Shown: positions 1,888 to 33,371 of the stretch, piece by piece
How the letters are laid out: the number at the start of each line of letters is the position of its first letter
How positions within the stretch are numbered: position 1 is the stretch's first letter
Origin: Saccoglossus kowalevskii
Lineage: Eukaryota > Hemichordata > Enteropneusta > Harrimaniidae
Reading direction: 5' to 3'
DNA length: 33,571 nt
NCBI RefSeq assembly: GCF_000003605.2
Contig: NW_003140811.1
Location: 816,238-849,808 of the forward strand
Position numbers and translations under genes: made by a program
Notes under the pieces: generated by a model
Database searches by the model: none
What the model was told of the DNA's origin: nothing
What the model saw: the letters and a program-made list of their open reading frames with translations, nothing else

Positions 1888-4800
1888 ATGCAGGGACGCA
1901 ATGCAGCAGAGAAAGCCCCTGGAATTGGTAAGTTTATAAATCTATCATTGACTCGCCGAAGTAGGAGTTGGTCGTACTTTGAAGCAAAAAGATAACTGAT
2001 CACGTGGTTTTATCAACACGCAAAGATGTTTAGACTGTTGGCTCGTATCTTTAGTTATTGTAAAGAAGTATCAAGCTTTCTAAACGCGATATCATAGCGT
2101 GATCCCATGGGTGGATATGACTGGAAGCACGAGCGTAGGCGCTGAATATACTAGTATGCATTTAAAGCTAGTTTGTTATCATACTAATATTTGAAAATAG
2201 CGAGTACGTACGACAAAAGCTCGAATTTCTTTCTTTGATAGCGGTAATTACCCGTATGACTCTAGTTTTTGAGCATATAGTACATTGAACTTCATTCTTG
2301 CTGCTGGGTTAAATCCACTTGTCGGACTACGCGATTGTCCAGAGAGGGCGACATAGATAAGGAAGCGAGGAAGAATACAACCATCTAAATTATTAATGGC
2401 TCGTACTATTTGCTGTGATTTGTTCTTGTAGGTGTTATGCTACCAGGCAAAGTGAGAAGGTCTCGTAAATATGAACCTCGATACGAATTTTCGGAATCTG
2501 TACCGGACCTGGAGCATAGTGATGAGTAAGTGTTGAAATATTTTCAGATACTATGCTAAAACTACACTGACCTTTGAACTATGACATGTCAACAACCTCT
2601 ATGCTGAGTGTGTCTTCAGTTAGGGTTCTACGAGCATATATGACGTCATCGTGATGGAAAAAGAATAAATATATTTACAAATATTAAGTGTTGGAAACAC
2701 CTCGGGAAAGAGGGGTGTTGTGGAGCGACACGTTGACACTTTCAAGTCCACCACTTTTAAGTTTTCGGTGGGGGGAATAATGGCTAGTAACACTCGCTGT
2801 GGCTTGGCTTCGCTTCATTAATGCAAAAAATCACTAGCGGCAACGCGGACGCTGATTGGTTGCTCGCGTTGTCGGTTTTTTGGCCAGTGTATACTGATAG
2901 AAAACATGCCAATTATAAAATAACTGTTTAAATCACGTGGATACTGAGTAGTAAGTTTCTGAGACTATATCGAGTGTAACGACCCACCCCTCGAATTAAT
3001 CTGTAAATAGTACGAGAGGTATTTCAACTTTTCCGTAGCACAGGCAGTTTACAATTATTTAAAAATGGATACAAATAATTCTAACAGAAATTATGTGTTT
3101 TTGTTATCATATAGGCTTCTAATTGATACGAGCTCTCCAGTTAAGGAACGGATTCATGGTGGCATTGACGGTCATTCCACTAGGACGTCCATGACTAACA
3201 TGCATGGGCACCGACCACGCAAAAGGAGTCAACTCGCTGACATGATTCCTATGCAGAGTCTTATCGATAAAATTATTGCCAGGCGCCAAATTACAGATAG
3301 GTATTTGGACGATCGGTATAGACGTTATAGAGGGCGTCCTTCGGAGGAAGACAAAACTCCGATGATGATCCGGTAAGCAGAGTGCTACATGCATGACTAC
3401 AATACGTATCATTCAGTGATAATTTACCGATCACCTATAGCGCAGTTGTAGTTGCATTCAGCCATCGGACCTAAGTAATGTATTCATGATAGAAATATTG
3501 CCAAATTCATATTACAATGGCGGCAGTCGTCGCGCCGCGTCCTGTTCGATATGGGACTCATAGCGACGTATACAACGCGTGTAAAATACATTGTTTATTT
3601 ACATGATATTCGAACACGCGCTGCGCGACGACCACTGCGCTTTAAGCTATGTTCTCGCGTTACGCTAAACATTGAGCTTTGTGTTTAATGTTGTCTGAGA
3701 TTGTGATAACGAATCCAATTCTGTTCATTTTTAGGAGTTATAGGCAACCAGAACCGCCTTTTGCGATTCAAAATAACCCACGGGTAAGGTAAGTGACATT
3801 AGTTTCTGTTTTTGCCCCACAACGTCGTTTATTTTTGTTTGTTTTTTGGACGACCTAAACTTGAAGTATGGCAATATTTTTTTATCGTAATGAATATCCT
3901 CTTATTATATGAATATATGCATTTTTTCATTTCAGAAAGTTTGTTTTCATATCACCGAGGAGAGATCGTGACCGTATTATCACCGGGCCAACATCCAGCA
4001 TTGTTGTCATCGAAAAACCGTCGCCTCTTCCTCTACTAGAAAGAGATGAGGATAAAATGCGGCAGCAAAAATGGAACAATCGAACCCAGGAATTGGATGT
4101 TAAAACGTGGAAACCAAACTTGGAGTATTTACATCGACATCATGTTCATCCTGCCGCCGACCGCGAAGACAGGCATGTTAGAAACTATAAACTCGAAAGA
4201 CAATTAGGCATGAAAATGGAAGGGCAGGGAATGTACAGCGATTCACACTTAACGACTCAGGCCAGGGTCTTACCACCGATCCGAATACCATGCCAGCCTA
4301 TCTTCGGAGACAGGAACCATGAAAAGCGAGGGGAATTGACGGAGTCTCGAAAAAGTACATGTAGCTCTGCAAGGTCGTCGAAAAGAAACATTACACTCGG
4401 GGACATTGATGTGGTGGAGAAAGAGAATGCACATCGCAATGAGCAGTCCGAGAGCAGAACTGACCAACAGATTGAATACACTAAGAGCGGAGAGACGTCG
4501 CGGGCGAACGAGGACTTGATTCTCGAAATAAAAGGTGAGGAAATCAAGAAAAACGATACAAAGGAAAAGCTTAACAGTAGTGGCGACGAGTCGAAATCAA
4601 TCGAGCATCACAAAATGGAGGTACGGATCCCGATGGGTGTGCCACGCGTACCAACAAATACACCTGACCTTCCTGGTGAAGAATACGATGACGAGGAGGA
4701 GGAGGGAGACGACATCAATAGAATGGAAACAGCTAACCGACCGAAATGTGTGACAGAATCAGAAAAAGTAGACAATAATACAGAAGTTGATAACAATATC

Positions 4801-5025
4801 ACAATTAGCGTCATAACAGTTGTCCCGTTCGACAACGCTAATGTGGTTAAAACTTCGTCAGATTCGAATAACAACTCAGATAGCAAACCAACTGTCAGTG
4901 ATAGGCCACCCAACGAGTCAGAACTAGGCGTCCCCACCATAACAATGACATGTGCAACTCCCATTCCTGGTACAATTTCACGGACAAATACACCAGCTCC
5001 TCCAGTTTCACCACAACGTGACTAA
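1888..5025 (+). CDS. Five-exon gene for an unrecognised 511-residue charged protein
   Basis: Exons 1888-1927, 2432-2525, 3115-3372, 3735-3788 and 3936-5025 join into 512 codons including TAA. Every junction has GT..AG ends and the phases match: GG|T after exon 1 (phase 1), then GA|G, CG|G and AG|A (all phase 2). Introns are short (504, 589, 362 and 147 bases). The product begins MQGRNAAEKAPGIGVMLPGK. The first third is Arg-rich, with a RYLDDRYRRYRGRP stretch near residues 105-120. Residues about 160-245 form the least repetitive and perhaps folded part (KTWKPNLEYLHRHHVHP). The rest is hydrophilic and probably disordered, with an acidic run of Asp/Glu near 396-408 and a Pro/Thr-rich tail ending APPVSPQRD. 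I see no signal peptide, membrane segment or catalytic motif, and I cannot assign a function. The start is uncertain, because the frame stays open upstream to an acceptor-like CAG at 1852-1854, so an upstream coding exon is possible. It is convergent with MBD4. Confidence 0.8.
3519..3640. repeat. GC-rich fold-back element in intron 3 of the unknown gene
   Basis: A left arm at 3519-3548 (GGCGGCAGTCGTCGCGCCGC...) and a right arm at 3611-3640 (CGAACACGCGCTGCGCGACG...) are imperfect inverted repeats about 30 bases long, sharing GTCGTCGCGC and GTTCG cores. The roughly 60-base loop is AT-rich. The element is far more CpG-rich than its surroundings and has no coding capacity, so it looks like a short MITE or its solo ends. 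A close relative of the right arm recurs at 31961-31986 (GGCGCGACGACTACTGCCCTTTAA), showing that it belongs to a family. I found no clear target-site duplication. Confidence 0.55.
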
Positions 5026-8176: not shown

Positions 8177-11100
8177 CTATAAATCTAATTGTTTATAATT
8201 CTGCCACAACCAATCATGATATTTATTCAACATGTGGTCTTCAGGTTTTACCTAATATAAAAAACAAACAATCAGTACATTTTGCATTGCATCACAGTAC
8301 GTTAGGTTCTAATTATAATGCAGGGATATGTTTATATTAGTTTTATATTTTACTGACTACTGCTATGATACAGCTTTATAGAAATGGGACGGTAAAATGG
8401 TAAGTAAACAGCCTTTATATTGCTCAAATGATCCAAGTGTTCTATAACCAATATAAATTACTTGCCTGTTTCCACTCATTGACACAAAATATTCGATAAG
8501 AATCATTCCCATATTTCCCAATCCCATATAATTCTATAGGATATTTCCAGTTTTTATGAATATATTCTTCTATAATGAACCAAAAAAAAAACAGATTGAA
8601 TATGATGCAGTAATAAGTCAGTTATTATTCATGGGGGAAAAAGCACTACTTGAAATATGCAACAGGATATTTGAAATACACATGAAGATGTACTCATAAA
8701 CACATCAAGGTATATTTGAAATACACATCAAGGTATATTTGTAATACACATCAAGGTATATTTGAAATACACATCAACGTGTATTTGAAATAAACATCAA
8801 GGTATATTTGAAACCCAAATCAAGGTATATTTGAAATACACATCAATGTATATTTGAAATAAACATCAAGGTATATTTGAAATACACATCAAGGTATATT
8901 CGAAATACACATCAAGGTATATTTGAAATACACATCAAAGTATATTTTAAATACACATCAAGGTATATTTGAAATAAATATCAAGGTATATTTGAAATAC
9001 ACATCAAAGTATATTTGAAACCCAAATCAAGGTATATTTGAAATACACATCAAAGTATATTTTAAATACACATCAAGGTGTATTTGAAATACACATCAAG
9101 GTATATTTGAAATAAACATCAAGGTATATTTGAAATACACATCAAAGTATATTTGAAATACACATCAAGGTATATTTGAAATACACATCAAGGTATATTT
9201 GAAATACACATCAAGGTATATTTGAAATACACATCAAAGTATATTTGAAATACACATCAAGGTATATTTGAAATACACATCAAGGTATATTTGAAATACA
9301 CATCAAAGTATATTTGAAATACACATCAAGGTATATTTGTAATACACATCAAGGTATATTTGAAATACACATCAAACTATATATGAAACCCAAATCAAGG
9401 TATATTTGAAATACACATCAAAGTATATTTGTAATACACATCAAGGTATATTTGAAATAAACATCAAGGTATATTTGAAATATACATCAAGGTATATTTG
9501 AAATACACATCAAGGTATATTTGAAATACACATCAAAGTATATTTGAAATACACATTAAGTATATTTGAAATACACATTAAGTATATTTGAAATACACAT
9601 TAAGTATATTTGAAATACACATCAAAGTATATTTGAAATACACATCAAGGTATATTTGTAATACACATCAAGGTATATTTGAAATACACATCAAACTATA
9701 TATGAAACCCAAATCAAGGTATATTTGAAATACACATCAAAGTATATTTGTAATACACATCAAGGTATATTTGAAATAAACATCAAGGTATATTTGAAAT
9801 ATACATCAAGGTATATTTGAAATACACATCAAGGTATATTTGAAATACACATCAAGGTATATTTGAAATACACATTAAATATATTTGAAATACACATTAA
9901 GTATATTTGAAATACACATTAAGTATATTTGAAATACACATTAAATATATTTGAAATACACATTAAGTATATTTGAAATACACATTAAGGTTATTTGAAA
10001 CAAATTATTCTTACCAGAAAATCTGATCAACATTTTAGCTCTTTTATCATAAAGTCCTAGAGGGTGAATCAAATTGGCTATCTCTTTCCAATCAGCGTTG
10101 ATTGTTTCCACAGCTGAGGGCCATTTGGTGAAGAACTGCCATAGAATTGGAATTGCAGCTTTACCTAGGAAGAATTGGAATGAATTACTGAACTTAGGAC
10201 AATCTCTCCATTCATGTCATATCCAAATTAAACCGTAAATGCTATAATAGAGTTTGGGGTTTAGGAGTATTGGTACGTACATTTTAATATAAAATACCTC
10301 TCATCACCCAAGGATATGGACCATATATTCTTTATTAGTAGCATATGCGCCGACGTAAATCACAGGTATATGTTCAAAATAAGTAATATTTTAATGATTC
10401 AATATACAATAATATGTCCATTTTGATTTTATATACACATCTAAATGAGCAAATACAATTACTCCAACTTTTAAAAAACTGAAACAAACTGGCTCGTGAA
10501 TGACTGGTTCTGCAATTGAAAATTTGAAAATTGTCCCTTGTCAGTGTGCAAATTTTAGGTAATTACAACCTGACAATAATATTGCATGCCAAATTGCAAA
10601 ATTATAGTGAGCATAGAGAAAGCGTCCAAAAGCCACTTGTGAAGTGAGATCTATAGATAACATGTGTATATATAGAAAAGTATGGAAGAGATATGTATAC
10701 TAGTAGTAGTACCCTAAGAGTTTGAAAATGATGTACTTTTCAGTCAATTTGTTGTTTCACAAATTATGCGAAGCGAAAAAGCTCATTCATGATAAAACAT
10801 ATTCAGGATGTTGTTCAATGATCAGGCAATTGTTCTCTGCCATTTTCATCAGCGGCAACACACGAATCATTCGTAGTGCCGTCTTGAATTTCACTCAACT
10901 TGCATGTGAACTTATAACTTCCGCAGTTCATGCTCGCTGACTCTCTATGAATATGTCAGTTCTATTTTAAGTACCAGTAAATCACTAAACTACTCAGCTG
11001 CGCTCACTTACTAGGCATTGCCTGCTACATATTACATATTTAATTATTTCACATATACATCCCATGGTGCATTTCTCTTTTTGTGTGCACAGTAACCAAT

Positions 11101-14100
11101 TATGGAAAACAGTGAATGATGACATCACTTATACTGAAACACAAGGAATGATGACATCATTTATACTGAAACACAAAGAATGATGTATCACTTATATTGA
11201 AAACAAAAAATGATGACATCACTTACACTGAAATACAAAGAATGATGATATCACTTATACTGAAACACAAGGAATGATGACATCAGTTGTACCGAAACAC
11301 AAAGAATGATGTATCACTTATATTGAAACATACGAAATGATGACATCACTTACACTGAAATACAAAGAATGATGACATCACTTATACTGAAACACAAGGA
11401 ATGATGATATCACTTATACTGAAACACAAAGAATGATGACATCCCTTACACTGAAACACAAGAACTGATGATGTCACTTTCACTGAAACAAAACACTGAC
11501 CTATAATACCTTACCAGTAGTCCGATTGAGGAATATTGTTGCAACCAGCAATTTCCATGGATCATGAAATAAACTTTCTTGCACTAAATTATAAGGAGAC
11601 TTTGGAGGAATCCATTTTGTTTTTTTCTTGAGAGAAGGCAACAGGTCCTTCCCTTCAAAATAAGGACTGGAAACGATCTTTCTCCTCCTTGTTACTAGGC
11701 AACTGGAATGACCTGAATGTAAACAAGGTTAGAAGAGATGGCCAATTATAAATATTTAAATTTACAAAATTTGAATGTCAAAATATGACCAGTACTTTGG
11801 TGTAACACATTTCACTGTTATTAAATTCTACCGTATAACTTATTTGTTGGATGCGAAAATTGGAAACATGCTTTGATCAATATATTTCGTAAATGGAAAC
11901 AATTATCTTTTTAACATGTGACAAAAGTTGAATTTCGTGTTCAAAAAAAAAAAGGGTTATAAATGTGCAATAATGTCAGATTATGACATCATCATTTCAG
12001 ATAACACAGAAACTCAGCTGTATAAAAATTACCATACTTGTGAACAAATTTATAAGACCAGATTAAAAAAACAAACTATTTTCAATCAATATCAGTAAAC
12101 ATTTGTTAACACAACATTCCTTTCACGTGCTTTACATGGGTTTCTATGGCAAAGGTAATTTCAAAATATCTAGAAATATGTTTGGTGACACCGTTGGAGC
12201 AAAAAAAAAAATGCCATTTATTTTTTAGCAAGATATTTTTTCTATTTAATATACTCAATGAGAACAAAGCACAGCATGGTATCATGTTAGATGCAGAAGG
12301 GTGTGATACTGTAGTGCTGAAATAAGATTTGTTTTGACTGGATTTTAAGTTCACCAAATTGGCACTACAGTTCGAGACAAGCTTTTACACAAGCACATAT
12401 GCTTCTAATACAGCAAATGTAGCATGATTTATTTTTTTGTAAAAAATGTTCAAATATAGTCTATTATTACCATCTCACACATCCCTAAAACATTATCATT
12501 GCACACATTTCAACAGTTTAAATGTTAAAGATTCTAACATAGCTTATACCGATAGGTTTGTTTCCAAATTCAAAAATTGTTACCAACATATTTTAGTTAA
12601 TCACTTTAGCCTTTCAAACCAATTCATACGTATAATCCAGAAAATGTTGTAAATTCCATATTTTGTATTCCCGCTGGGGTAAAATATTGAAATAAGGGCA
12701 CATAAAAATGAAAGTAATGAGTATAGCAGCTTTATTTCAAATAAGGAAGCAGTTTTATCATGGTGCAAGACCAAACTGGATATGGTGGAACAGCCACAAA
12801 AACATGTTCAAGACAGTGGAAGATACCAATTACTCTTAAAACTGTCAACAGTGACACTACCCCAGATATTTTTTTTAAATTTTAATATTAAAATTTGCCA
12901 TTCTAGGTATTCACTATATGCAGCAAACCACCAACGCCTTGATATGATAGTGAACTATGTAATTAAGTTGAGATATGATTGATTATTAAAAAGTGCTAGA
13001 ATTATAATATTTTGTCAATCAACCTCAGATTTTGTGTTTAGGAGAATTTGCATGCAAAATTTAAACTAGCCAATGAACAATCAATATACTTATGACACCG
13101 TGTAGGGTCATATTTGCATGACTTTCATTGGATAATGAGATATTACTAGCACTGTACCTAGGCATATAGTGAGGTAAGGCCGCATAGATGTCTAAGACAT
13201 CCAATAGTGTGTGATGTTTGCTTAATCTTAATAGATAATGGATATTACGAGCACCGTAACTCGTCATGTAGTGAAGAAATGTCAATAGACATCTATGACA
13301 TCCCATACTACACGAGGTTTTCTTGAATCTGAATATTAATGGGTTAAGCCAGTAGAATGCATTAGATTCTATGCACAAATTTGTCAATGCAAGACGCATG
13401 CTTTGGACAATTTTTCCTGTAAATGAATTTTTCTTTTCTAATTTTATGAACCAGACAATGTCTACACATTATAATTAAAGAGGCAATTTGAATAACTATG
13501 AATATATGGGTAAATCAAGTGCCAATTAGTGTTCTTATTCATATGAATGTCATCATTACCATGACAATGTTTATATTTTACAATAAATCATTTTATCAAG
13601 TTGCAATAAAGAATTATTTGCAAACCTTTTCCAAAATGCTCAGTTCTCTACACTGCCTCTTTAACCCTACGATGGCCATAATTTTTGCCGCCAAAATTTT
13701 GATGAAACATTTTGTACACTTATAGGCATTTTCTTCTATTTTTTGGGTTCATTTGAACTAAATGCACATAATTTATTATCAGTTACAGATTTTGATTAAA
13801 ATTTATGAAAAAATACAGAAATAATTATGAAGGTTTATTTTGCGAAAGGTAACAAAAAAGTTGACTTTATACGTGCAAAGAGGTGAATTACTATAGCAAC
13901 AAGGGATCAAATAACACTTCCTGCATGGATGAATTCAGACAACAGGATTTTCCAAGAATACAATAACATATTTATTGCAGATACAATTAACAAGTGCAGT
14001 AAAGCAAGTAAACATAATTAACAAACTTGTAACATGTACCGGTATACACCACAAAAAGAACAATTGTATAGCAATTGCTCGATGTGGGAATCGAGTTTGA

Positions 14101-17100: not shown

Positions 17101-20100
17101 AGATCGTGAAACAAATTGACGTGCACATGTAAAATATCATGTATGATGTATGTGTGAAGTTTGATTGTGATTGGTCCAGGCATTTCTAAGATACAGGTCC
17201 GAACGCACGCACAGACGCACGTACACACACGCACGCACAGACACACGGAGGTCAAAACATAAGTCCCAGTTTTCGGACTGCGTCCGAACGGGGACTAAAA
17301 ATTAAAACAACAAGAAACATTTTCTGTCAGCGTCAAACATATGCCTCCCCCATTATCCCCTGAACGGCAACGAATAATAGAACTAAAATATTCAATTCAT
17401 ATTTTATGTATAAAGTCTGCCCTCTGTACTTTATTTACAATTTACAAAATTTAAACAATGCATATTCAAATGAAAATGAATGCTATTTAATAATATGCGA
17501 TACTGGCCTAATAAATGTAATCTCATACATTAGCCCAATATCAGTAGAAGAATCAACTTGCATCGTAAATGGCATGCCTCCCCAATGATCATACAAACCA
17601 TTTTTGAAATCATGCGCTATAACCTCATCAAGATGAATGAATGGTTTCACACAATAACATTGGTTGGGGATATAATATAAAAAATAAAACAGGAAATACA
17701 AAATAGTGAGCTCCTGTAATCCAAATGTAAGTATGTTCTCTGTTTGGATAAAGCTGGCCCAGTCAACACAGAGAACAGTTGTGGCTGAGATGAGTGAAAC
17801 CGTCTTGTACTAATTGGAGTCTAGTGAAATCTTGATTACATCCCGTACTGCCCAAGTGCATACTATATTCCAGCGATAACATTATTATCTCTTTCTGCTT
17901 GTAGTCATCTTGAAAATAAATGTTATGTACCTTATGCCACAAAGATTCTATGGAAGCACTAGCATTCAATGATGTGTTTCTACTTTCTCCACAAGTATTG
18001 TATTTGTACCAATTTAGAAAAAAAATATGACGGGGAATTGGTTTGAAACGCACACACCACACACAGACAGACAGACAGACAGACAGACAGACCAAACGCA
18101 GAGGGCCTGACAATATATACATGTGCTTTGTTGCTGAAGTCAATGCATGCTTGTTTATGGATCGCGATATAGAGCTCAAAATAAAGGAAGGTTTAAAACT
18201 GAAATTGTTTAGTAATGTAATGCAAGCATATATTACTAAATTTAATCATCCAAATTTTCAAAACCCTCAAAATCATGCATACTTTTTTATCTAACGAGCC
18301 TGCACTATACTATACTACATATTCATTACACACTATAAACGTCCATTTATTGACTTCAGCAACCGACCACATGGAATCGTCAGGTCCCTGGGGGACAGAT
18401 GGCTGTCTACAACCCAAATCACATACGATTGCATTGCATCTAGCAAAGAGTGGGAGCTAAGGGTGAAGATTCATACATTTTTCAACTCTTCCGACGACAT
18501 TGTCAACTTTTGCCCACAAACTTTACAAAACAAATCGTTACAGTATTTTGTCTGCTCATTTCAAACAAATATGTTTTCCCAAATTGTCATAAATTTAGGG
18601 TAAAGATCTGTTTGCTCAATAAATTAAAACCTGTAGAAATTAATTTAGACAGAAAGCGAATGATTTAGACTTTATATTCAGTCAATCCAAAATATAGAAT
18701 TCACTGCATTTCAAGCCCAGTCATGGCAATTTTATTCTTTCATATAATTCCTTGAAGAACAAGTTTGTAGAATCTCTCGCATTGACGCGAAATTTTCACG
18801 ACTGGTTCTGTCGCGCCCTCTATAGTTGACACCGCATTTTTGAGGTGATAAATATGCTAATGAGTAGCATGAATTGTAAGTGCCAACCAATCAGAAAAGC
18901 AGCTTCTGGTTTGATCTATTCTTCACACACGTGGCCTGACACATTGCGACTTTCTTCATTTGGAAGTGTTCTACTCCCGGGTTCCATAACATCACTGCAT
19001 ATCATTAATAATTCAAAGCAATGAATACGCCTCAGAATAGACCAGTCGTGGTAATTTTGCATCGGACCAAGAGTTAAGAAAGAATTAAAAAATTTCCACG
19101 ACTGGTCTGTTTCTATCATTGATTATAAATAATATTTAGAATTTTAAATTAAATACACCTTCTGAGATTCTTTTCCTCCTTCCAGCATCTTTCATCTCAT
19201 CATTACTATCTGGCGTTCTCTGTCTGTTCTGCGGACTTTTCTCATCTACTGTTCCACTGCCACTCCAGAGAATATCTTGTGATCGCCGTCTACTCTCAGT
19301 CTGTTCTTTCAGGCTAGGTGACCGTGCTTCGCCATCGCTAGAATGTCTAACTGGAGACATTTTATTACAAGGAGATTTTGACTCTGAGGTTCTCCAAGGT
19401 GGAACTCCTTTGATCGGAGACTTTAAATCAATATCAAAAAAACTTTTTCTTGGAGAACTAATTCTCCTTGATTCAGGTTCATTAGAATTCCTGCACGGAG
19501 AAACAGGTGATACTGAACCATCATCATGGGAGTGTTTCCTAGGAGACCTTGGCTCACTGTCATTCAAGGCTTTCTTTGGCACATCCTTTTTTTCTTTCCC
19601 TTTCCAATCCTTCCTCCATGCGAAATCCTTATTTTTTACAGGTCTAGTGTCTTTTAAACTCTTTTTGGGGGATGCATTCTGAGATGAAGATAATTCATCT
19701 TTATCTTCCCTACTCAGAGAACTGAGATGAGGGAAAATCAATTGTTTCTTTGTAACCACAATTGTTTGTTTGTTTTGTTGATTGCCCTTTCCTTCAATTT
19801 GACTATCTACAGTAGTCTGTTTTATCATTTTTTTATTTTTCATCGTTGGCATAGCTTCTTTGCTTTCACTCATTTCCATCGCCCTTTTTCTTCGCTCTTT
19901 TGGAGTTATAAAGTTAATTTTCACAAACAGTTTTTGAGCTGGTTTCAAACTAGCCTTCTTTTGTTTCTCTTCTTTTTGTTTTGAAAGTTTTGTTATCTCT
20001 TTTAATTTTTTTGGTGATGGCTGGGTGGACCTAACCGGTGTGTTCTTAATACCTCTAATGGTGAAGTCAAACTGACTACATTTTAGGTCAGAGTTTGTCT

Positions 20101-23100
20101 TCATAAACAGAGCAGCCAGTTCAATTCTTGATCGATATTTTTTACCTTCAGGACTGAAAAACAAAATAAAAAATATTTTGAGCAGTAATCCTAGATTTTA
20201 CATAGCACAGCTAACCTCAGCTCAGAGAACCCAGTCACGCTACACACTAGACGAACTCAACCATGTCAGGATAAGTTCACCCTGAAAACTATGCTTTCTA
20301 GTCAAGCTAACCTCAGTCCGAAAAACCCAGTCATGCTACACACCAGAATAACTTACCCAAGCCAAGATAAGTTCAACCTACCACTATGCTTTCTAGTCAA
20401 GCTAACTCAGCCCAGAGAACCCAGTCATGCTACACACTAGATGAACTAACCATGCCAAGATGAGCGCAACCTGACACTATGCTTTCTAGTCAAGCTAACC
20501 TCAGCCCAAAGAACCCAGTCATGCTACACACTAGATGAACTAACCATGCCAAGATAAGATAAGCGCAACCTACCACCATGCTTTCTAGTCAAGCTAACCT
20601 CAGCCCAGAGAAACCCAGACATGCTACACACCAGATGAACTCAACCATGCCAAGATAAGCGCAACCTACCACCATGCTTTCTAGTCAAGCTAACCTTAGC
20701 CCAGAGAACCCAGTCATGCTACACACCAGACGACCTCAACCATACCAAGATATGCTCAACCTACGACTATCCATTCTAGTCATGCTATAACCGCAAACAA
20801 GGGAACCTATTCAAGAGGAACACAAGCCAAAATAAGCTTAATCTCCAATGATTACATCTAACGAAAAGAACACGCACAATAATACAGAACTTCTGTCATT
20901 GTAATTATAACATTGATATTTTACTTTGAAACAGAAACATGTTCTCATTCCAGTGACCAGGTTTACTCTATTCACCTATATGTGTAGAAATTGAAGTCAA
21001 CATTGACACAAATTCTGCATTATACAATGAATAAATAAAATCTGAGTGCATAACTGAATAGCAATATGAGTGAAGTGAAGGAATGATGTGAGTTCCTGAA
21101 TATCTTTCTCATCTACTAGATTATTGTTATCACTTACCTGAGTATATATACATCATACTTGCCCGCTGATTTACCAGACTTGCGCTGCACTACTTTTCTT
21201 GTCCATCCCTCTGGTAGAGTGGTATCTTCCAACAATGGAGAATCGTTTATATTTGAGATATCGCTCTTAGTCGGTGATGATTCTGTTGACGCATCAGAGA
21301 TCTCTTGACTTTGCCGCGTAGCTTGACTTTCATTTTGTTTGGCTTTATCTTCCACTGATTTAGCCTTTTTTCTCTTCTTCTTTATTTCTTTTTGTTCATC
21401 GGTAAGTTCCTTTTTCTTTTTCTTCACCTTAGGAACATCTTCATTCTCATCTCCACAATCAATTTTCTTCCTCTTACGGGGTTTCTTTTCCTTGTTGCTT
21501 TCACCAGCCTCCTTATGTTTCTTTTCTTTGCCCTCTTCACCTGACTCCTTAGGCTTCTGTTTTTTCTTTTCTTTACCAGCACTGGCATCATCACTTGATG
21601 TTTCAGGTTTTTCCCTTTTCATCTTTTTTCTTTTATTTCCTTTTGTCTTGTTTTGTTCCCCATCTTCCGTGATCAGATCATTCTGTTCATCCTGCTTTAT
21701 TTTTTTCTTCTTCTTTTGTTTCTCTATTACTTCTTTGGTACAGGCAATTGCTTCTTCAAAACTCATTTTTTTTTCCTGCTTCTGTCGTTGAACTTCAAGA
21801 AAATTCACACTTTTCGCATATGCATGATCTCCAAGACAAATCCGAGCTCTTTCCTCACTAGTCTGTCTTTCCAAATTAGCTTTATCAGGACTGTTTTTTC
21901 GCTCCCCTTCTTTCTTATCACCACAATTGTGTTTCTTAAACTTCAAAGACGTGGGTAACACAAATGACTTTGCTGTCGTACATTTTAGAAGCCCCATCAT
22001 AATTTTAGGCGATTGTGGCGAGGAATGTGAAGGAGAAATCATTTTGGGACTCTTTGGTGATGTCGGAGAGCACAACATCGGACATCTTTCTTCTATTGAT
22101 GTAAGCGAATTGGAAGGCATTGTAAAAGGTGCTATCTTACAGAACAGAGGAACTCTCTCGGCAGCACTGCTCCTGAAAAAGAGGGAAAAAACAAATATAG
22201 ATGGAGATGACAATCAGTTGAGACTAAATAAAAAAAAATTATATTATTTATTTTCGAAAATAATAATAAACAAATTAGCTACTTAATACGCATGAACACG
22301 GCACTTACACATTGTATACCAAATTTGGTCAAAATTAAGATTTTGCTCAAACGAACAGACAACAGGTGTTTTGCACACACAGGATGTATGGTTGTGTTCA
22401 TGTGTCTGGGTGTACATTTGATTGTAATTTTAAACAGAGAACAATTGTGCATAAATAAATATATCATTTCATAAAGACAAAATGGCTGACAATTTAGCAA
22501 TGATGTTGTGACATTATAGCCAGCATACTGTATAATTAATATTAATGAGTTCCATATCATCCAGTCAGCAAGTACTTTACTTTGAATAAGTGGGTAGTAT
22601 AATCAACTGTTTTCATTTCCACACCCGACCTCAACACTATTTGATATACACTCGATATCATACAAATTCTCGCACTTGATTATAAAAACATGTATTTTTT
22701 TAGTTCAAGATGTTCAGAAAAAATGTAATTTACGCTTTCATTTTTTTAGTCAAAACAGAACACAGATGTTAAGATTTAAAAAAAATTTAATTTAAAGAAA
22801 ACAAGTTGTTGTAATCTCAAATGGAGAACGCAACACATCACACCAGCAATGATTTCAACAAAACCTGAACATCAATCTTTTTTTTACTCACATTATAAAC
22901 ATAACTAAGGCATGCGGCAAAAAAAAATAATACTCTAAGGTTAAATGATTTCTACACCATGTTTTTGAAAGTTCATTGCTACCATAAATGGATGACATGA
23001 GTAACCAAATGTATCTTGATTTGAATTGCTAGCACACAATTGTCTGTGAACTAAGTTTGGACCTAATTGGACTGTGTGAATTTGAGATTCTTCAAACAAA

Positions 23101-24941
23101 ATGGCTGCTGGTCAAAAGTACAGGTGTTAACCACATTCTAAGTTTGAACAGAATCAGCCAGCAAAACTAGGAAAATTTACAGAATAATTCTCAACGAAAT
23201 ATAAAAACATCACATAGAAATATTCAGGTTTTAAAATTATGTCTACTGCAAAACAATTCAATCAACAACCAATTTGATGCCGCTAGTTTCTTATTGGAGT
23301 GAGTTCTACAAGCAAGTTTATTGCATTAAAAGTTGTTCTATTTCAAATTGTGCACACATACACACACACACACACACAGTGATTTCTCAAAATGCATACT
23401 AATTAAGTAACTTGTCACTGGTAAAAGTTATTGAAAACATTTTGAGCAATTGTACTAGAGTGAAATATCAATGTGCTTCTGCATTCTCCATGAATTTCGT
23501 AAATTGTTATGATCAATTAAAGAAAAAAACTGTGGTTACTTTCAGGTGTCTCTAAAACAACTTTTACATCAGTTTTTCGATTATTTTTTTCAGCTCATAA
23601 TAATAGAATCAGTTAATTTATAACTACCATGTTGGCTATAGGAAAGCATTTTGGCATTTTAACTGAAAAGACGAGTTGTTTTATTGCTCATGAATATATG
23701 CAAATGAGACATTTTTTTAGCCAGTCATGTCATGCAACACCCTTTGGTCTTCTAATCATTAATACAGGTGGTGTCATTTTGATTGTTCAGGTCATTCATG
23801 AAAAACATGTAAATTAGAAATCATGTACTTAGCTAACAAATCCACTTTTTTCTGTTAAGCAGCGACAATTAAGTAGTGAACGCGAAACATACTGACAATT
23901 CATGTCTGACTGTTTGAATCCCTATGTCTGTAACACTCCATGTGCTGTAAACATTCTACTTTATGTCATTTTCAGTTACTGTGAACGGATAAATATTCAC
24001 AGAGTTTAATTTTAGCAGCTTTTACAGCAGGGATATTCACTATGTTTTAAATTAACTGGTTTGCAAAAGACTAATATATTTTATGGTCAACTTTAATTAT
24101 TCACTGGGTTATAATTTATTTCTTTATTTAGCACATGTAGCTTTCAGCTAAAAAAGTTAAAATAAAACCCAGCAAACAATATTGTATTGTTAGTAATGAA
24201 CTACAAGAAAATAAATTGGGTATTACCAGTTGCCTATTATTTCTTACCTAAAACATATTATTTAAAATTGAATCCATTTTATTTTAAAGATTTTAATGAT
24301 GACCAATGAATCATAAGGTATGTCCTCAGTTAACCCATCAATCAAACAAAAAACGGGTTTGGGAAGAAGGGGACATGTATCTCTTATTACATATTATATA
24401 TTATTATAATCATTTGTAGCAATTATGGTGATAAATTTTGGTTTATAAAACACCACAGTTAACTGAACTAAACAAACATATTTTTATGTGCTATGTGACT
24501 TTATTAATGGTGTCGAGTGGACCTCACGATTTGATATGGACAGTCGATCCCTCAACCAATGAGTCACTGTGCACCACGTTACCACGATGGTCAAAATTCT
24601 GACTTTGTGAACTTAAATAGACCGCACACTTTGAATTCGCAACTCTGAAACACGATACAATACATCGCATACTGGTTTGTGACCGTGTGCATCGCGCGAC
24701 CACGACTCGCACGTTCCATCAGTGACTGAGGTAAACAACCATGGTTTGCCTGACCTTTTTAAGAGTTGTTTTAGGCACCTTTTTAGCAACACACATACAC
24801 GGCTTACTCTGTGTGAATACTGTTACTTAGTACGAGTTGGAGTACAGTCTTTCAAACAATGTAAAAGTCACTCTACTCGACGATCACATTTTCCCAGGAA
24901 ACAACATACCTCTCAGCCTTCTTCTCCATGTTTTCCGCCAT
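8177..24941 (-). CDS. MBD4: MBD4: methyl-CpG-binding thymine/uracil DNA glycosylase, complete, 7 exons
   Basis: Exons in transcript order: 24941-24910, 22172-21138, 20153-19159, 11712-11515, 10164-10015, 8569-8466 and 8251-8177. They join to 862 codons plus TAG with consistent phases (2, 2, 1, 1, 1, 0). MBD4 is a nuclear base-excision-repair enzyme that removes T or U mispaired with G at deaminated CpG. Residues 1-325 are a Ser-Pro-rich then strongly Lys-rich, probably disordered, extension. The MBD spans about 328-390 ([20 protein letters not shown], then YDVYIL, then [10 protein letters not shown]). Residues 391-690 are an SP-rich linker with many SPxK-like sites. The glycosylase domain runs from about 700 to 862: [14 protein letters not shown], then [32 protein letters not shown], the hairpin [15 protein letters not shown], and catalytic Asp843 in [16 protein letters not shown] (human Asp560 by position). 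It is longer than the 580-residue human protein, almost wholly in the extension and linker. Intron 6 has a GC donor. The exon 3 donor (GTGTAT, 19158) is weak, and a short extra exon in the 7.4-kb intron 3 cannot be excluded. Confidence 0.96.
8655..9997. repeat. 23-bp minisatellite filling MBD4 intron 5
   Basis: About 58 tandem copies of a 23-base unit (consensus AATACACATCAAGGTATATTTGA), with recurrent variants: AAACCCAAATC, AAATAAACATC, CATCAAAG, and a 22-base form containing CACATTAAG. The array ends about 17 bases from the 5' splice site of exon 5 and covers most of intron 5 (8570-10014). A higher-order duplication is visible: the stretch around 9301-9540 recurs almost unchanged 319 bases later (about 9620-9860), both carrying the rare CATCAAACTATATATG unit. 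Units have no spacers and vary gradually, so it is a variable-number tandem repeat and not a CRISPR array. Confidence 0.95.
11114..11496. repeat. 32-bp minisatellite in MBD4 intron 4
   Basis: About 12 tandem copies of a 30-34 base unit with consensus GAATGATGACATCACTTATA followed by CTGAAACACAAG. Some units lack a few bases (GATGTATCACTT instead of GATGACATCACTT). The array stops about 18 bases before the 5' splice site of exon 4 (donor at 11514-11509). Most units carry TGACATCA, one base from a CRE/AP-1 palindrome. It is unrelated in sequence to the intron 5 array. Confidence 0.93.
13131..13335. repeat. Diverged two-copy tandem duplication (~103 bp) in MBD4 intron 3
   Basis: The segment starting GATAATGAGATATTACTAGC at 13131 is followed 103 bases later (13234) by GATAATGGATATTACGAGCA. 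Further parallel blocks follow (CATATAGTGAGG / CATGTAGTGAAG; AGATGTCTAAGACATCC / AGACATCTATGACATCC; CTTAATCTTAAT / CTTGAATCTGAAT). The copies are considerably diverged, so the duplication is old. Confidence 0.6.
14505..14587. repeat. Degenerate relative of the 23-bp minisatellite in intron 3
   Basis: Three to four decayed units around TATATTTGAAATACACA (for example TAAAGTATATTTATAAATAC, then GCTATATTTGAAATACACA, then TGGTATATTCAAAATACACA). They match the consensus of the large array in intron 5, although more than 4 kb and two exons away. It may be an old seed of the same repeat. Confidence 0.55.
16440..17300. repeat. Old interspersed repeat built of ~150/300-bp units (intron 3)
   Basis: Blocks such as AACAAAATGGCCACCAG (16621 and 16923) and CACAAAAATGGCCGCCATT (about 16771 and 17068) recur with a period of about 300 bases. 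Half-unit similarity at about 150 bases is centred on AAAATGGCC..CC..TTTTGAATC, followed by ACGTGCATCA or TGACGTGCACA. The right end is GC-rich and simple (ACGCACGCACAGACGCACG, about 17203-17245) and finishes in GTCCGAACGGGGACTAAAAA. The layout suggests a non-autonomous element with internal tandem units. No reading frame is present. A related fragment may lie at about 23095-23160 (AACAAAATGGCTGCTGGTC, then GTTTGAACAGAATCAGCCA). Confidence 0.7.
18063..18092. repeat. (CAGA)n microsatellite
   Basis: Seven or more uninterrupted CAGA repeats within intron 3 of MBD4. The adjoining short open frames are artefacts of this repeat. Confidence 0.9.
18714..18809. repeat. Fold-back element, CCAGTCRTGG family, copy 1
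   Basis: The left arm at 18714-18734 (AGCCCAGTCATGGCAATTTTA) and the right arm at 18790-18809 (AAATTTTCACGACTGGTTCT) are inverted repeats with several mismatches. The arms resemble those of the fold-back at 19036-19111, so the two are members of one family. Intron 3 of MBD4. Confidence 0.6.
19036..19111. repeat. Fold-back element, CCAGTCRTGG family, copy 2, beside the exon 3 donor
   Basis: The left arm at 19036-19058 (AATAGACCAGTCGTGGTAAT...) and the right arm at 19089-19111 (AAAATTTCCACGACTGGTCT...) pair over 20 or more bases with few mismatches around a 30-base loop. In the pre-mRNA this strong hairpin would start 41 bases after the end of the exon 3 donor hexamer (19158-19153). Confidence 0.7.
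20210..20800. repeat. ~96-bp tandem repeat in MBD4 intron 2
   Basis: Six units plus a partial one begin with GCTAACCTCAGCCCAGAGAA or close variants at 20210, 20306, 20401, 20494, 20593, 20689 and 20784 (spacing 93-99 bases). Each unit contains CCCAGTCATGCTACACAC, then ACCATGCCAAGATAAG and ATGCTTTCTAGTCAA. The array ends 57 bases from the start of exon 3 (20153), on the acceptor side of the intron. Its composition is more GC-rich than the flanks. Confidence 0.93.
22173..24909. other. MBD4 intron 1: no gene found
   Basis: AT-rich, with donor GTATGT after exon 1 and acceptor TTTTTCAG before exon 2. It contains a (CA)n microsatellite at 23352-23379 and scattered fragments resembling the AAAATGGC repeat (about 22480 and 23095). 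The open frames are short and unsupported. Confidence 0.6.
23352..23379. repeat. (CA)n microsatellite
   Basis: A run of about 13 CA dinucleotides with one interruption, in intron 1 of MBD4. Confidence 0.85.
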
Positions 24942-26381: not shown

Positions 26382-27763
26382 ATTCTCATTATTTGCTCCG
26401 CACACAGGAGGCAAATAAATATTTAAAAAAAAATTCTACTCACACTTGAAAGAAAAAAAGCAAATTTGAGTAACACTGAAATAGTCAAACAAATATCAAA
26501 ATGAGAAACTGTGAGTTCATATTCTTGAGCACGCTTACCCCATTTTCCTATTAATAATGCATAATATACCATAAAAACTATGAGTATGTCTGCAACTAAA
26601 GCACTAAATTATAAAAAGTGTGTCATAGTCCATTTCAAATTAGTAATAGAGATTCCCTGGTTCCTGGTGTCCCCTGTGAATGGCAGTAGAATGCAGGTCG
26701 TTGAGTCTTCATATGATGCGCTCTTTCAGCATTGGTGGAGAAAGGACACCGATCTTCATCATCAACATTGTGTACAATATAAGCTTGCCCGATCAACGTC
26801 TATAGCTCTCAGTTACATCATTTTGATGCATTTAAAGTAAACAATGAACTTATATTATTGTATAGAAAACAAGAGTACCTAGTATTTTTAATGTCCATCT
26901 TTGGTGTCAGAATGTTATTTTTTGGCAGACTTGAACACTGTCTACAAAGTTCCATCTTTAAAATTATTATTTTGTGTTCAATAATTATTTTTTACTTTAC
27001 CACCACAAAACTGAAAACAAGAAAACAATCTTTTTTAAAAATTTAATTGATAAAAAATTACAAATTTAAAAAAAAACAATTCCCCTGAGTAATAAACTGT
27101 GCCTTATGAAGTACTACTAGCAGAGTAAATGGCGTCTTTTATCACAATGGTTAGACAGTTTTACTGGTAGTGTGATAGGTATTTTTGATGGTTAAAAACC
27201 TTTCACTTAGGTAACCGGGATTCGGTCGTTTCCACGCTAGGCTGACAAAAGACACACACAAGCTTCATTCATGTTCCAAACGATTCTCTGCCAAGTCCCT
27301 GGTTTTCACCCGAGACAGCATTAAATCACTCTTTATTTCTTGTCACTCCTTAACCAATTACAATCAGTATAAGGGACTCCAAGGCCTTGCCTTCAAACAA
27401 ACAACCAATCACATGAAAGTTTTTCACATCATAATCAATTAATTACTCGTCAAGCTATCTAGAAAAACACTACTATATATTGTCAACACTAACTAATATT
27501 TATGGGGTAATAGTCTTGCACTAACATTCCACAAAGATACCACCTTAGTTAGAATCGCAAACAAAATTGGTTTAGGATTACAGCTACTGTATTGTATCTT
27601 AAAAACTGCAGGCTCATAAGATGTTTTTGGTTGATTTCGACTAGCTCGCCATCTGGCCTTGTCATTAACCTTTATCAGTATATGTCATGGCAACCACTGT
27701 CAAACTGACTGAAATATAAATCATGACAGTAGTATGAATGTTACCGGGTATGCTCATTTTTAT

Positions 27764-29658
27764 TCACTTTGCCGTAGAGTCAAAATCTCTCCAATCCAAG
27801 TCAGTGCAACCAGTCTTTATAAAGTTTGCCACTACATCACTTCGGGAACGGAATCTCTTGTTCTGAGGACTGAAATAATAAGGTTGTTATAAATAATTGT
27901 TTCAGATATACTAATAATGTTCCATGAACAAAGAAAGCTGTCACTCAAACAGAACATCCTACTGCGTGTGATAAGATTAAATCATTATTACTATATCAAA
28001 AGGAAACCGACGGAGATGGGTGATGGTAATAAGAAGGATGACCCTCAGATATGTAAATTAGTGGTCACAAAACTGCAGTAAAATATTGTCTATATCATTA
28101 CATAGCTTGGAGAATAATGGCATGCACACAAATAGAGCAAAGTGGTACAACGTCAGATGATTTCATGCTTCAAAAACAAAGATGAGCAGTGGGTCTTCAA
28201 TAAAAATAATATATCCACATAGAGAAAATACTTTCAAATATCACCAGCTCCAAGCATGATCATGTATGATTTAATTTAAACCCACAAATTTAGTAAAATC
28301 TCTATGAAATCTCAAATTTGCATAAGTATGAATTTGACCTTCACGTTCCAGCTCTTCATTCTGCCTATCAAAAGACTCTTTGGAAATGGTCAACCAGCAA
28401 TGTCTGGTGACAACTAGCCCAAACATTTGTGGAGCATCTTTTGATTGGTTGTTTTAATCTGATGAAGTGACATGTAACATGATTTCCCAGGAAATTTAAA
28501 TTTGATTTAAAGTGAACTTGATTTTGAGAACACTACAGGCTGAATGAAAATATAATAGCATTATTTCTATTACTCTTACATGTACATGACTATACAACTT
28601 TGGCTAAAACTTGGGTACTCAACCTTCAAAATGGAGCCTAAATTTTACCCATGAGCACATTTTGTAAGTACTTGTAATATCAAGAAATTATACCCTAAAC
28701 AATGGTCATGTGATGTATATGAATCAATTGATTTATTGGATGCGATGAATGACAAAATTGAGAAAAAATTTGAGGTATTTTGTATAATTTTTTTTTATCT
28801 TTCTTTGGAAGTATGCAAGATATTCAAACAACTTATACCCTTAAATGCAAAACATGCCCGGCTAAAGGCTTTCAAGGTTGCGTACCCGACTTTGAGTAAA
28901 GTGCAGAAAGTACCAGGATGTGTAACCTACGAGTTATACAGTTATTCTAATTTTTGCATTAGAAGGCATGTGTGTTGTTTCATAACAGACATATTGTTTA
29001 TGTTGTTGGCATGCATTGAGTGGTAGACCAATGAAGAGAGCAGTGGCTGATGCGACAGTGCGGGCATATAAAATGTTTAAAACACTTTGATAAGAGCTGA
29101 ACAAAATGTCCACCACATGTGGTGCTTAACTTAGTTACCATTCGCTACACATCTCGTGAGTGATTTCCCACTCTATACTTGCCAACAAAATAAATGCTAT
29201 AGCAGGGATTTTTGTTTAAAAAGGGAACAGGGGCGCAGCACCCTCATGGCCATGCCCCCTTACCCTAGGGAGCAGATCCTCTGGCAACCATACAATTCTG
29301 ATTGACCAGGGATCACATGTGGCCACAGTCTTTAAGTGTCACCTGTCTGATAGTAATTTTAGCCCCAAGGAAGCCATAGAATGATCCATTTTGATTTAGA
29401 ATTATTAAAAACTCCACACCGTGGTAGGGAGAACCCTATCTCCCCCACTTGGTGGCGCCGTAGAATTGCAGTGCTCCCTCTTGCAGTTTTTTCCCCAGAA
29501 AAACCCCTGCTATAGTGTTCATAGTTGTATCATTGGATGCTGAGATACAGGTGACTTTGACTTACTTGTATATTACGACATCATGTCTACTATTCTGTCT
29601 TCGTGTAACACATCTCCTCCATCCCATTGGCAGTCTGGGATCATTCCACATTGGACAC
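27764..29658 (-). CDS. Second methyl-CpG-binding-domain locus: two exons encoding a diverged MBD
   Basis: Exon a (29658-29566) and exon b (27869-27764) have a good acceptor (AATACAG), donor (GTAAGT) and acceptor (TTATTTCAG). Joined, they read CPMWNDPRLPMGWRRCVTRR, then QNSRHDVVIYN, then PQNKRFRSRSDVVANFIKTG, CTDLDWRDFDSTAK and stop. This aligns along an entire MBD: LPMGW with LPEGW, HDVVIY with YDVYIL, KRFRSR with KKYRSR, FIKTG with FMKTN, and DFDST with FDFTI. The intron falls between the same two codon bases, in the same phase, as in MBD4. Differences: three residues of the GKxAG loop are missing, and the Tyr of the DVY motif is Val; in MBD2-type domains that Tyr supports recognition of methylated DNA. 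TGA overlaps AATAAA (27764-27759). A donor-like AA|GTGAAT lies just before it, so the frame might continue. Exon a is closed upstream by an in-frame TAA, so it depends on the acceptor. It is a real MBD homologue; whether it is a live gene or a pseudogene is open. Confidence 0.7.
29197..29515. mobile_element. ~320-bp MITE-like element inside the second MBD locus
   Basis: The ends are inverted repeats: CTATAGCAGGGATTTTT at 29197-29213 and AAAAACCCCTGCTATAG at 29499-29515 (one mismatch over 17 bases). The interior is much more GC-rich than the flanks (ACAGGGGCGCAGCACCC, TTGGTGGCGCCGTAG) and has no reading frame. It lies in the intron between the two MBD exons, 51 bases from the exon a donor. The target duplication is unclear, perhaps TA. 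A non-autonomous DNA transposon is the likeliest explanation. Confidence 0.65.
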
Positions 29659-29659
29659 C

Positions 29660-30790
29660 TGTATTGATTTTACAATTTTCAATATTTACAAGAGAAGTAG
29701 CACATTGAATAGTATCAATTTCTTTATGATCATTTGTTTTATGTTTCGATTTCTTTCTTTTTCTTGCTCAATGTGTCAGCTTTTTTTTAAACCTGGTGTA
29801 AAATGTTTCTCTTCAATGCTTTTTTTATATTTCTCTATTTCCTCCACATTATCATCACTATAAGTCTCAAAAAATGCTGCAAACATGCTGTTAGATTTAT
29901 TATTTATTTTCTCACTTGCCACGTCAGATTTTCTTTTTCTTCATAATCATAAGATAAGGTGATGCAGTATTCATCCATTTTAATTGTTTTAATTCCGCTT
30001 CAATATGATTACCAACATCGAACACAGAAGATGATAACCTTCCAGGATTCAACTGTGGATGAATTTTCTCCTGACTTCTGAGTTTCCTGACTTTGAGATT
30101 GTAAAACAGTTTCATCCACATCTATAGATTTATGCTCTACATTGTCATTTTCAACAGTTGCGCAAGTTTCTCTTGAATGTTTTGATTTTCTTGTTTTTCT
30201 TTTGACTCTTTTCAGTGTTCATAACAGAAGCAGCACAATCCATTGCATCATTTTCTGTATGATTATTTGTTGTATGTTTCCATTTCTTTTTTTCCTTTTC
30301 TTGGATAATATGATTGTTTCATTTATTAAACCTGATAAAATATCCTTTTTTATCTCCAATGTTTTTATTAAATTTCTTTTTTATTTCTTTTACTTGCTCA
30401 CCACTACCAGTCTCAAAGCCTACTGAAAACATATTACCAGAAGTTTGCTTTTTCTTTTTCTCATTCATCAAGACAGATTTCACTGAGGATGACGGTTCCC
30501 TCATTTTTCCAATTTCAAAACCACCTTCACTATTTTCCATCATATCATTTGTCAATTTCTTTTTCCTGCTAGTAAAAAAAAATCATATGGTGCAATATTC
30601 TTTCGTTTTGCTTCTTCAATCCCTTTTCAATATGATCACCGGCCTCAAATTCAAAAGATGGTAATCCTCCAGAAATAAAGTTTTTCTGTCTTTTCCTAAA
30701 TTGCATCTTGATAAGCAACTTTTTACTCTTCAGTGATTTCATTTTTTCACGTCTGAATTTCATCTTATTCATTAAACATAGGTTTACTCA
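29660..30790 (-). pseudogene. Decayed lysine-rich coding region with duplicated three-block module, upstream of the second MBD
   Basis: Read on the - strand, three protein blocks occur twice in the same order. Block X: GGLPSFEFEAGDHIEKGLKK (about 30665-30605) and GRLSSSVFDVGNHIEAELKQ (about 30040-29980). Block Y: NMFSVGFETGSGEQVKEIKK (about 30435-30375) and SMFAAFFETYSDDNVEEIEK (about 29895-29835). Block Z: KKWKHTTNNHTENDAMDCAA (about 30285-30225) and KKSKHKTNDHKEIDTIQCAT (about 29755-29695). Blocks sit in different frames with stops between them (for example after Y in both copies and after Z in copy 1), and obvious introns do not repair every break. Some breaks could be introns: TTTTACTAGCAG at about 30578-30567 is a fine acceptor. 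Composition recalls the Lys-rich region that precedes the MBD in MBD4, but I see no direct alignment. The function of the module is unknown. Confidence 0.55.
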
Positions 30791-31830
30791 CAAAAGTCCA
30801 TGTTTTAGGTTAGACAATAGAAGACGGCGCAGATTTGATGTACATATCACTATACTTTGGTGGATAACTAGAAAAAAATAGAATAAAAACCATCAAAGAT
30901 TTACAAAGAATAAGCAACTCAGATTTTAATGTCTGGTGATGCATGTGTCAATAAACTGTAGAATTATCGCATATTCAAAAGGCAAAACACATATATGTAG
31001 GACTTCCACTAAGATAAAGTATCTTTATGCAAATTAGCTACTACGGCATTGTTTTTATTAGCCAATTTTAAATTTGATTAGGCACTAGCTAATGAGAAGA
31101 AATGGTAAATCACGAATTTGTCAGAAAATTGGAAATGGAAACATGCTATTGTAACATACAATTTATACATTAAGCAATATGTTTTCCTTGTGTTTAATTT
31201 ACATTTCTGTGGGTGATAAAGTTCTTTTAAAAAAATGAAAATTTTTCTAGAATCATTCATGGTTTGAAATCACTCTTAGCCATTGTGACAAAAGTGACAC
31301 AATTTACTGTAGTCAAATCTAAATGAATTTTCGCTATTGCCGATAAAAAAGGGTTAGCGGAACACTTGTAAAAATGACTTATGTACATTATTCTTGTAAT
31401 TTGGTCATCATCTCGCAATTCAAGTGATTTCAAATTTGGATCTTCATAGAGCATCATCTTATCAATCCTACTGTATGTACAATGTACAAGTGTAATGTGA
31501 TATTAGTAAGATCTTTGTGAAGTGACATCTGTACTTTGCAAGGATTTATAACAGAAGAAAAACAAATTCTGTATGCCTATTTCTTAAGGACAAGTGTAAA
31601 TATGAAAAAAAAACACAGCGGTTTTAGTTTTAATTTGAAAATTTCTTTTGCCATCGCCCCACCGAGATTTGATAGTTGATGATCTTATACTTAAAGAGCG
31701 GCTGGCGTCGTGCTGCGCATGTGCGACATTTGTGTAGATAAACATTGATTTTCCCACAATCCAATGCGCTTTTCCAATGGAAAGCACAAGTATGAGATTT
31801 AACCTGGGCACGACTAGCAAGTATAATTAC

Positions 31831-33060: not shown

Positions 33061-33371
33061 CGGCAAAACTCTATTATTTCACGGCAAAACTTTATTATTT
33101 GGCGGCAAAACATTATTACTTCACAGCAAAACACTATTACTTCACGGCAAAACTTTATTTTGTCATGGTAAAACTTTATTATTTGACGGCAAAACTCCAC
33201 AATTTGACGGTAAAACTGTAATTAGTTGCGGCAGAGCTCTATTACTTCGCAACGAAACTCTATCACTTGTAGCGGCAAAACTCTCCGCGTCACGGCAAAA
33301 CTCTCCGCGTCACGGCAAAACTCTCCGCGTCACGGCAAAACTCTCCGCGTCACGGCAAAACTCTCCATTTC
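33061..33371. repeat. CGGCAAAAC tandem array: 21-bp units turning into 20-bp units
   Basis: About ten diverged 21-base units (CGGCAAAACTCTATTATTTC plus A) run from 33061 to about 33272. They pass into four identical 20-base units CGGCAAAACTCTCCGCGTCA at 33273-33352 and a fifth, altered one at 33353. The 20-base section is perfectly homogenised and CpG-rich, whereas the 21-base section is old. The change in unit length breaks any reading frame, so the heptapeptide-like open frames here are not genes. Confidence 0.93.

Follow-up and report, generated by a model that had tools for sequence, protein, structure and literature searches.

The window, by which we mean the whole stretch of 33,571 nucleotides that was analysed, harbors two loci of interest on its minus strand. 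The first is a gene that looks like a complete, apparently intact MBD4. The second, in the same orientation, is found 2.8 kb 5′ to the first coding exon of that gene and consists of a further MBD split over two exons (hereafter the copy) together with an A-rich stretch on its 5′ side. The features are the following.

8178..11714, minus strand: glycosylase half of MBD4, four exons (outer bounds)
19160..20153, minus strand: exon 3 of MBD4, carrying the C-terminal half of the MBD plus a linker; lower bound approximate
21138..22172, minus strand: exon 2 of MBD4, encoding the lysine-rich region plus the N-terminal half of the MBD
24910..24941, minus strand: probable first coding exon of MBD4, phase 2 and in frame with exon 2 (sequence reading only)
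27764..27869, minus strand: second half of the copy MBD, ending DFDSTAK-TGA, with AATAAA overlapping the stop and a donor-like GTGAAT at 27767
29197..29515, minus strand: interspersed repeat, about 310 bp long, in the intron of the copy MBD
29566..29654, minus strand: first half of the copy MBD, PMWNDPRLPMGWRRCVTRRQNSRHDVVIY-N, with a GTAAGT donor after 29566
29567..30766, minus strand: A-rich stretch at the position of the lysine-rich exon of MBD4, its 3′ end taking in the first MBD half
30766-30190 and 30174-29658, minus strand: repeat copies inside the A-rich stretch

In the downstream gene, the motifs of the glycosylase half, including its C-terminal tail, are presumably those of MBD4. Taken singly, its two MBD exons score 25.0 and 19.1 bits against PF01429, and of the two glycosylase exons that were scanned one matches HhH-GPD at 23.6 bits, below the cut-off of 26.2, while the other gives no match. 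Two introns of this gene carry tandem arrays: a 23-nucleotide unit in 58 copies just past a glycosylase exon (8667-10000) and a 96-nucleotide unit in about six copies in the intron that splits the MBD (20209-20787). Elsewhere in the window, an open frame of 370 amino acids on the plus strand (3913-5025) is perhaps an exon of another gene, and a tblastn comparison with plasmids returned one irrelevant match.

The preliminary description of this locus proposed that two exons rebuild an entire MBD upstream of MBD4 and suggested a profile search of the joined translation. This proposal is borne out: the joined exons match PF01429 with 36.6 bits (E 3.5e-9), above the curated cut-off of 21 bits, and the two pieces stand in the right order, strand and phase. 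The 29566/27869 join reads ...DVVIY-N-PQNKRF... and is flanked by a donor AA/GTAAGT and an acceptor ATTTCAG/T (slashes mark the cuts); the frame runs through 64 codons without stop or frameshift. Scored singly, the halves reach 14.9 and 15.8 bits, both below the cut-off, and the assignment therefore depends on the joined pair. When the MBD of the neighbouring MBD4 was used as the query against the 1528 six-frame open reading frames of the window, the copy segments ranked third (21.5 bits) and fourth (10.0 bits), and the only frames above them were the two MBD exons of MBD4 itself. In 100 dinucleotide shuffles the highest scores were 11.7 and 9.0 bits, so that the first half was outscored by one shuffle and the second by none. 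In the genome-wide PF01429 search the second half scores 20.0 bits, practically level with a zinc-finger gene at 20.2. These single-half results are what would be expected if the segments were chance MBD-like matches in non-coding DNA; such a coincidence is nevertheless very improbable in view of the joined score, of the 28 residues out of 59 identical to MeCP2 and of the correct arrangement and splice sites. A real, two-exon MBD on the minus strand is thus confirmed.

The copy exon stretch is single-copy in a DNA search of the 572-Mb genome; that stretch alone served as the query, as a search with the whole of 27760-31100 was swamped by the repeat in the intron. Thirty-nine other genomic copies of this repeat were scored, out of 599 first-look candidates, and are 86-89% alike; its inverted ends lie at 29190-29213 and 29499-29522.

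The intron of the copy MBD and the MBD intron of the neighbouring MBD4 coincide in codon and in phase (phase 2). The match is exact, as the preliminary description stated; its weight as evidence for duplication is weaker than was claimed there, since this intron position is probably common to several MBD genes and so not specific for MBD4. For the same reason, although the copy carries the intron expected of the MBD4/MeCP2 group, the position is not diagnostic of it. At the residue level, the copy is identical to MBD4 at 25 of 58 aligned positions and to MeCP2 at 28 of 59, and the MBD4 of the window agrees with MeCP2 at 38 of 62. The copy retains 20 of those 38 shared columns. Furthermore, it shares with MeCP2 an NPQ, an F and one extra residue that are absent from the MBD4 of the window. 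The retention of residues lost from MBD4, together with the nearly equal distance of the copy from MBD4 and from MeCP2, argues for an old duplication, which probably predates the loss of NPQ, F and the extra residue from MBD4. Recent gene conversion from MBD4 is unsupported, with just 25 of 58 residues in common.

Among PDB entries, MeCP2 is the best match of the copy (53.6 bits), followed by MBD4 (29.8), MBD3 (28.8) and MBD2 (20.8). The MBD4 of the window likewise matches MeCP2 best, with 83.7 against 53.7 bits, and the MeCP2 match of the copy is therefore read as a signal of the group and not as MeCP2 orthology. The part of PMC8330077 consulted groups Mbd4 with MeCP2 among MBD proteins. The copy falls closer to MeCP2 and MBD4 than to MBD1, MBD2 or MBD3, in a PDB ranking, not a tree, in which MBD3 stands near MBD4; with the MBD2/3 proteins it shares the MBD fold, and on this PDB comparison it differs from them by its weaker match.

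The only other site in the genome that matches the copy is exon 3 of MBD4, and only weakly (E 2.07), in an exon-by-exon search that is a limited test as it can miss split genes. Two further MBD-like matches (L019 and L021) belong to one open reading frame, which we take to encode C2H2 zinc fingers and which was rejected as an MBD gene on that recognition. Two unsplit MBDs (L001 and L002) presumably belong to BAZ2 and SETDB genes. MBD2/3 was sought in the 572-Mb genome with PF14048, PF01429 and PF16564 and was not located; one weak MBDa match (E 5.03) was rejected, as the frames of the stretch in which it lies appear to resemble a cysteinyl-tRNA synthetase.

The catalytic half distinguishes the two loci. 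As had been reported beforehand, the 2.8 kb between the copy and MBD4 yielded no glycosylase exon, and a search for a second glycosylase across the 572-Mb genome recovered only the four exons of MBD4 itself. Hence neither the region nor the genome provides the copy with the C-terminal HhH-GPD glycosylase of an MBD4. On the other, upstream side of the copy, an unread run of 8337 N bases starts at the end of the window; beside it, at 33061-33366, lie tandem arrays of 21- and 20-nucleotide units. The earlier suggestion of an MBD4-type duplication devoid of its catalytic half accords with these searches, the copy being of the same group, sharing the intron, adjoining MBD4 and having no other relative that was found. 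What the two loci have in common is the type of MBD, the intron codon and phase, an A-rich stretch upstream (lysine-rich in MBD4) and their vicinity on one strand. The copy differs from MBD4 in having no glycosylase found, a broken upstream frame, a four-residue loop deletion, a valine in place of a tyrosine and a stop just after the MBD.

The stretch preceding the copy MBD resembles the MBD4 exons in composition: its sense strand contains A at a fraction of 0.434, compared with 0.424 and 0.403 in coding exons of MBD4 and 0.30-0.36 in three flanks. Over its 1200 nucleotides a stop-free path needs at least 9 frame changes, whereas MBD4 exons 2 and 3 need none. Shuffles of the stretch need about 20 on average, and none of 500 was as low as 9. 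The resulting z of -3.8 is the lowest among 12 minus-strand stretches, the other 11 ranging from -2.7 to +0.4; these controls are presumed non-coding, partly overlap one another and in two cases include part or all of the second exon of the copy. One control also needs 9 frame changes (z -2.7), and the antisense of the A-rich stretch needs only 8 (z -1.5). Five pieces of the stretch were compared with Pfam and yielded nothing beyond one chance-level match (E 0.11). On balance, and by a modest margin, the stretch appears to be a formerly coding, now broken exon. We consider sequencing error an unlikely cause of the breaks, since exons 2 and 3 of MBD4 are just as rich in A and yet contain no interruption.

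Two repeat copies within this stretch provide an internal view of its divergence. They are identical at 359 of 474 aligned bases and align with a score of 374.5, whereas 100 simple shuffles reached at most 248.5. Between them 7 of 28 gaps, counted by hand, have a length divisible by three, and mismatches are distributed as 17/15/20 over the three codon positions, 65 each (p 0.39). Few gaps in multiples of three and no third-position bias indicate divergence without visible coding constraint. The description of the locus as a second MBD locus, if taken to mean a working one, consequently does not hold up: none of the three frames of the upstream exon part is intact, and its repeat copies show no such constraint. 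The broken frame that marks a pseudogene is found in the upstream stretch; the MBD itself is free of it.

Could the copy exons instead serve as alternative 5′ exons of MBD4? Splicing from the donor-like GTGAAT at 27767 would bypass the stop and link the copy to MBD4 exon 2, giving an isoform with two MBDs; the 27768/22172 join is in phase and open through that exon, and the copy stands in the right orientation 2.8 kb upstream. A phase fit arises by chance in one case out of three, though, GTRAGT-like sites with at most one mismatch occur at 6.6 per kb, and a new start would still be required, given the broken stretch upstream. We regard this arrangement as improbable, and slightly more so its consequence, that some MBD4 transcripts running through the degenerate copy encode a repair enzyme with two different MBDs, one of them blind to methylation.

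The residues expected to contact DNA are only partly preserved in the copy MBD. Alignment with MBD4 and MeCP2 reveals a deletion of four residues in the GKxAG loop, where three had been counted previously, and agrees with the earlier reading of a valine in place of the key tyrosine of DVY. Two arginines and an aspartate, which we take to be DNA contacts, are retained. In BgMBD2/3, according to the portion of PMC5433704 consulted, methyl-CpG is contacted by two arginines, a lysine and a tyrosine. At the equivalent positions, mapped by hand, the copy keeps both arginines, replaces the lysine by arginine and the tyrosine by valine, and thus lacks the full set of contacts of a methyl-CpG-binding MBD. 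The consulted part of PMC5240623 attributes methyl selectivity to that tyrosine. From the shortened loop and the missing tyrosine, a translated copy MBD would be expected to favour methylated CpG weakly or not at all.

The codons of the MBD retain traces of constraint. Between the copy and MBD4, 22, 19 and 32 of 58 codons differ at the first, second and third positions respectively (p 0.015), the third having changed most. Two methods give dN/dS values of 0.48/1.51 and 0.45/1.07, near saturation, and a third gave no value. In simulations of neutral change at 0.3 per site, about 8% of frames stayed free of stops and 51-53% of residues were kept. This low proportion argues that constraint lasted long or partly persists, and selection has probably acted on the copy MBD during much of its existence.

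The same observations are what a short working gene would produce. Translation would begin either from the ATG within CCAATGTGG or downstream of an acceptor located shortly before it, and the product, some 63 residues long, would consist of the MBD alone and act as a weak DNA binder or a competitor of MBD4. Its frame is open, its splice sites are strong, third positions have changed more than first and second, and survival of the frame under fully neutral divergence is improbable; an AATAAA sits at the stop. This last signal carries little weight as the motif occurs 50 times on the minus strand of the window. There is moreover an in-frame TAA five codons 5′ of the MBD segment, the upstream stretch offers no usable frame, and the MBD lacks the key tyrosine and part of its loop. 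We consider such a gene unlikely, albeit the most serious competitor of the readings discussed here.

The explanation that we favour, with a probability of roughly 0.68, is that the locus is a decaying old tandem duplicate of a gene of the MBD4/MeCP2 group and most likely a pseudogene. An ancestral gene of this group would have been duplicated in tandem long ago. The copy would have remained under constraint for some time, as suggested by a dN/dS to MBD4 of about 0.3-0.4 and by the excess of third-position changes, before it lost constraint and began to decay. It would now comprise a frame-broken lysine-rich exon and two exons spelling an MBD, without the glycosylase half, and the surviving MBD frame would be a remnant without necessary function. 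We infer the coding past of the A-rich stretch that this course presupposes. Three points stand against decay: the intact MBD of 64 codons, the two arginines and the aspartate retained in it, and the low odds of a neutral frame staying free of stops.

Titles and abstract openings in one library yielded no report of a tandem MBD4 copy. The part of PMC8330077 consulted describes a few mbd duplications, mainly in vertebrates. If the locus is a pseudogene, it would be an ordinary relic, helpful for dating the duplication of MBD4 in this lineage and to be kept out of gene counts. If it is expressed, it would be a reader of methylated DNA that has lost both the enzyme and the methyl-specific residue.
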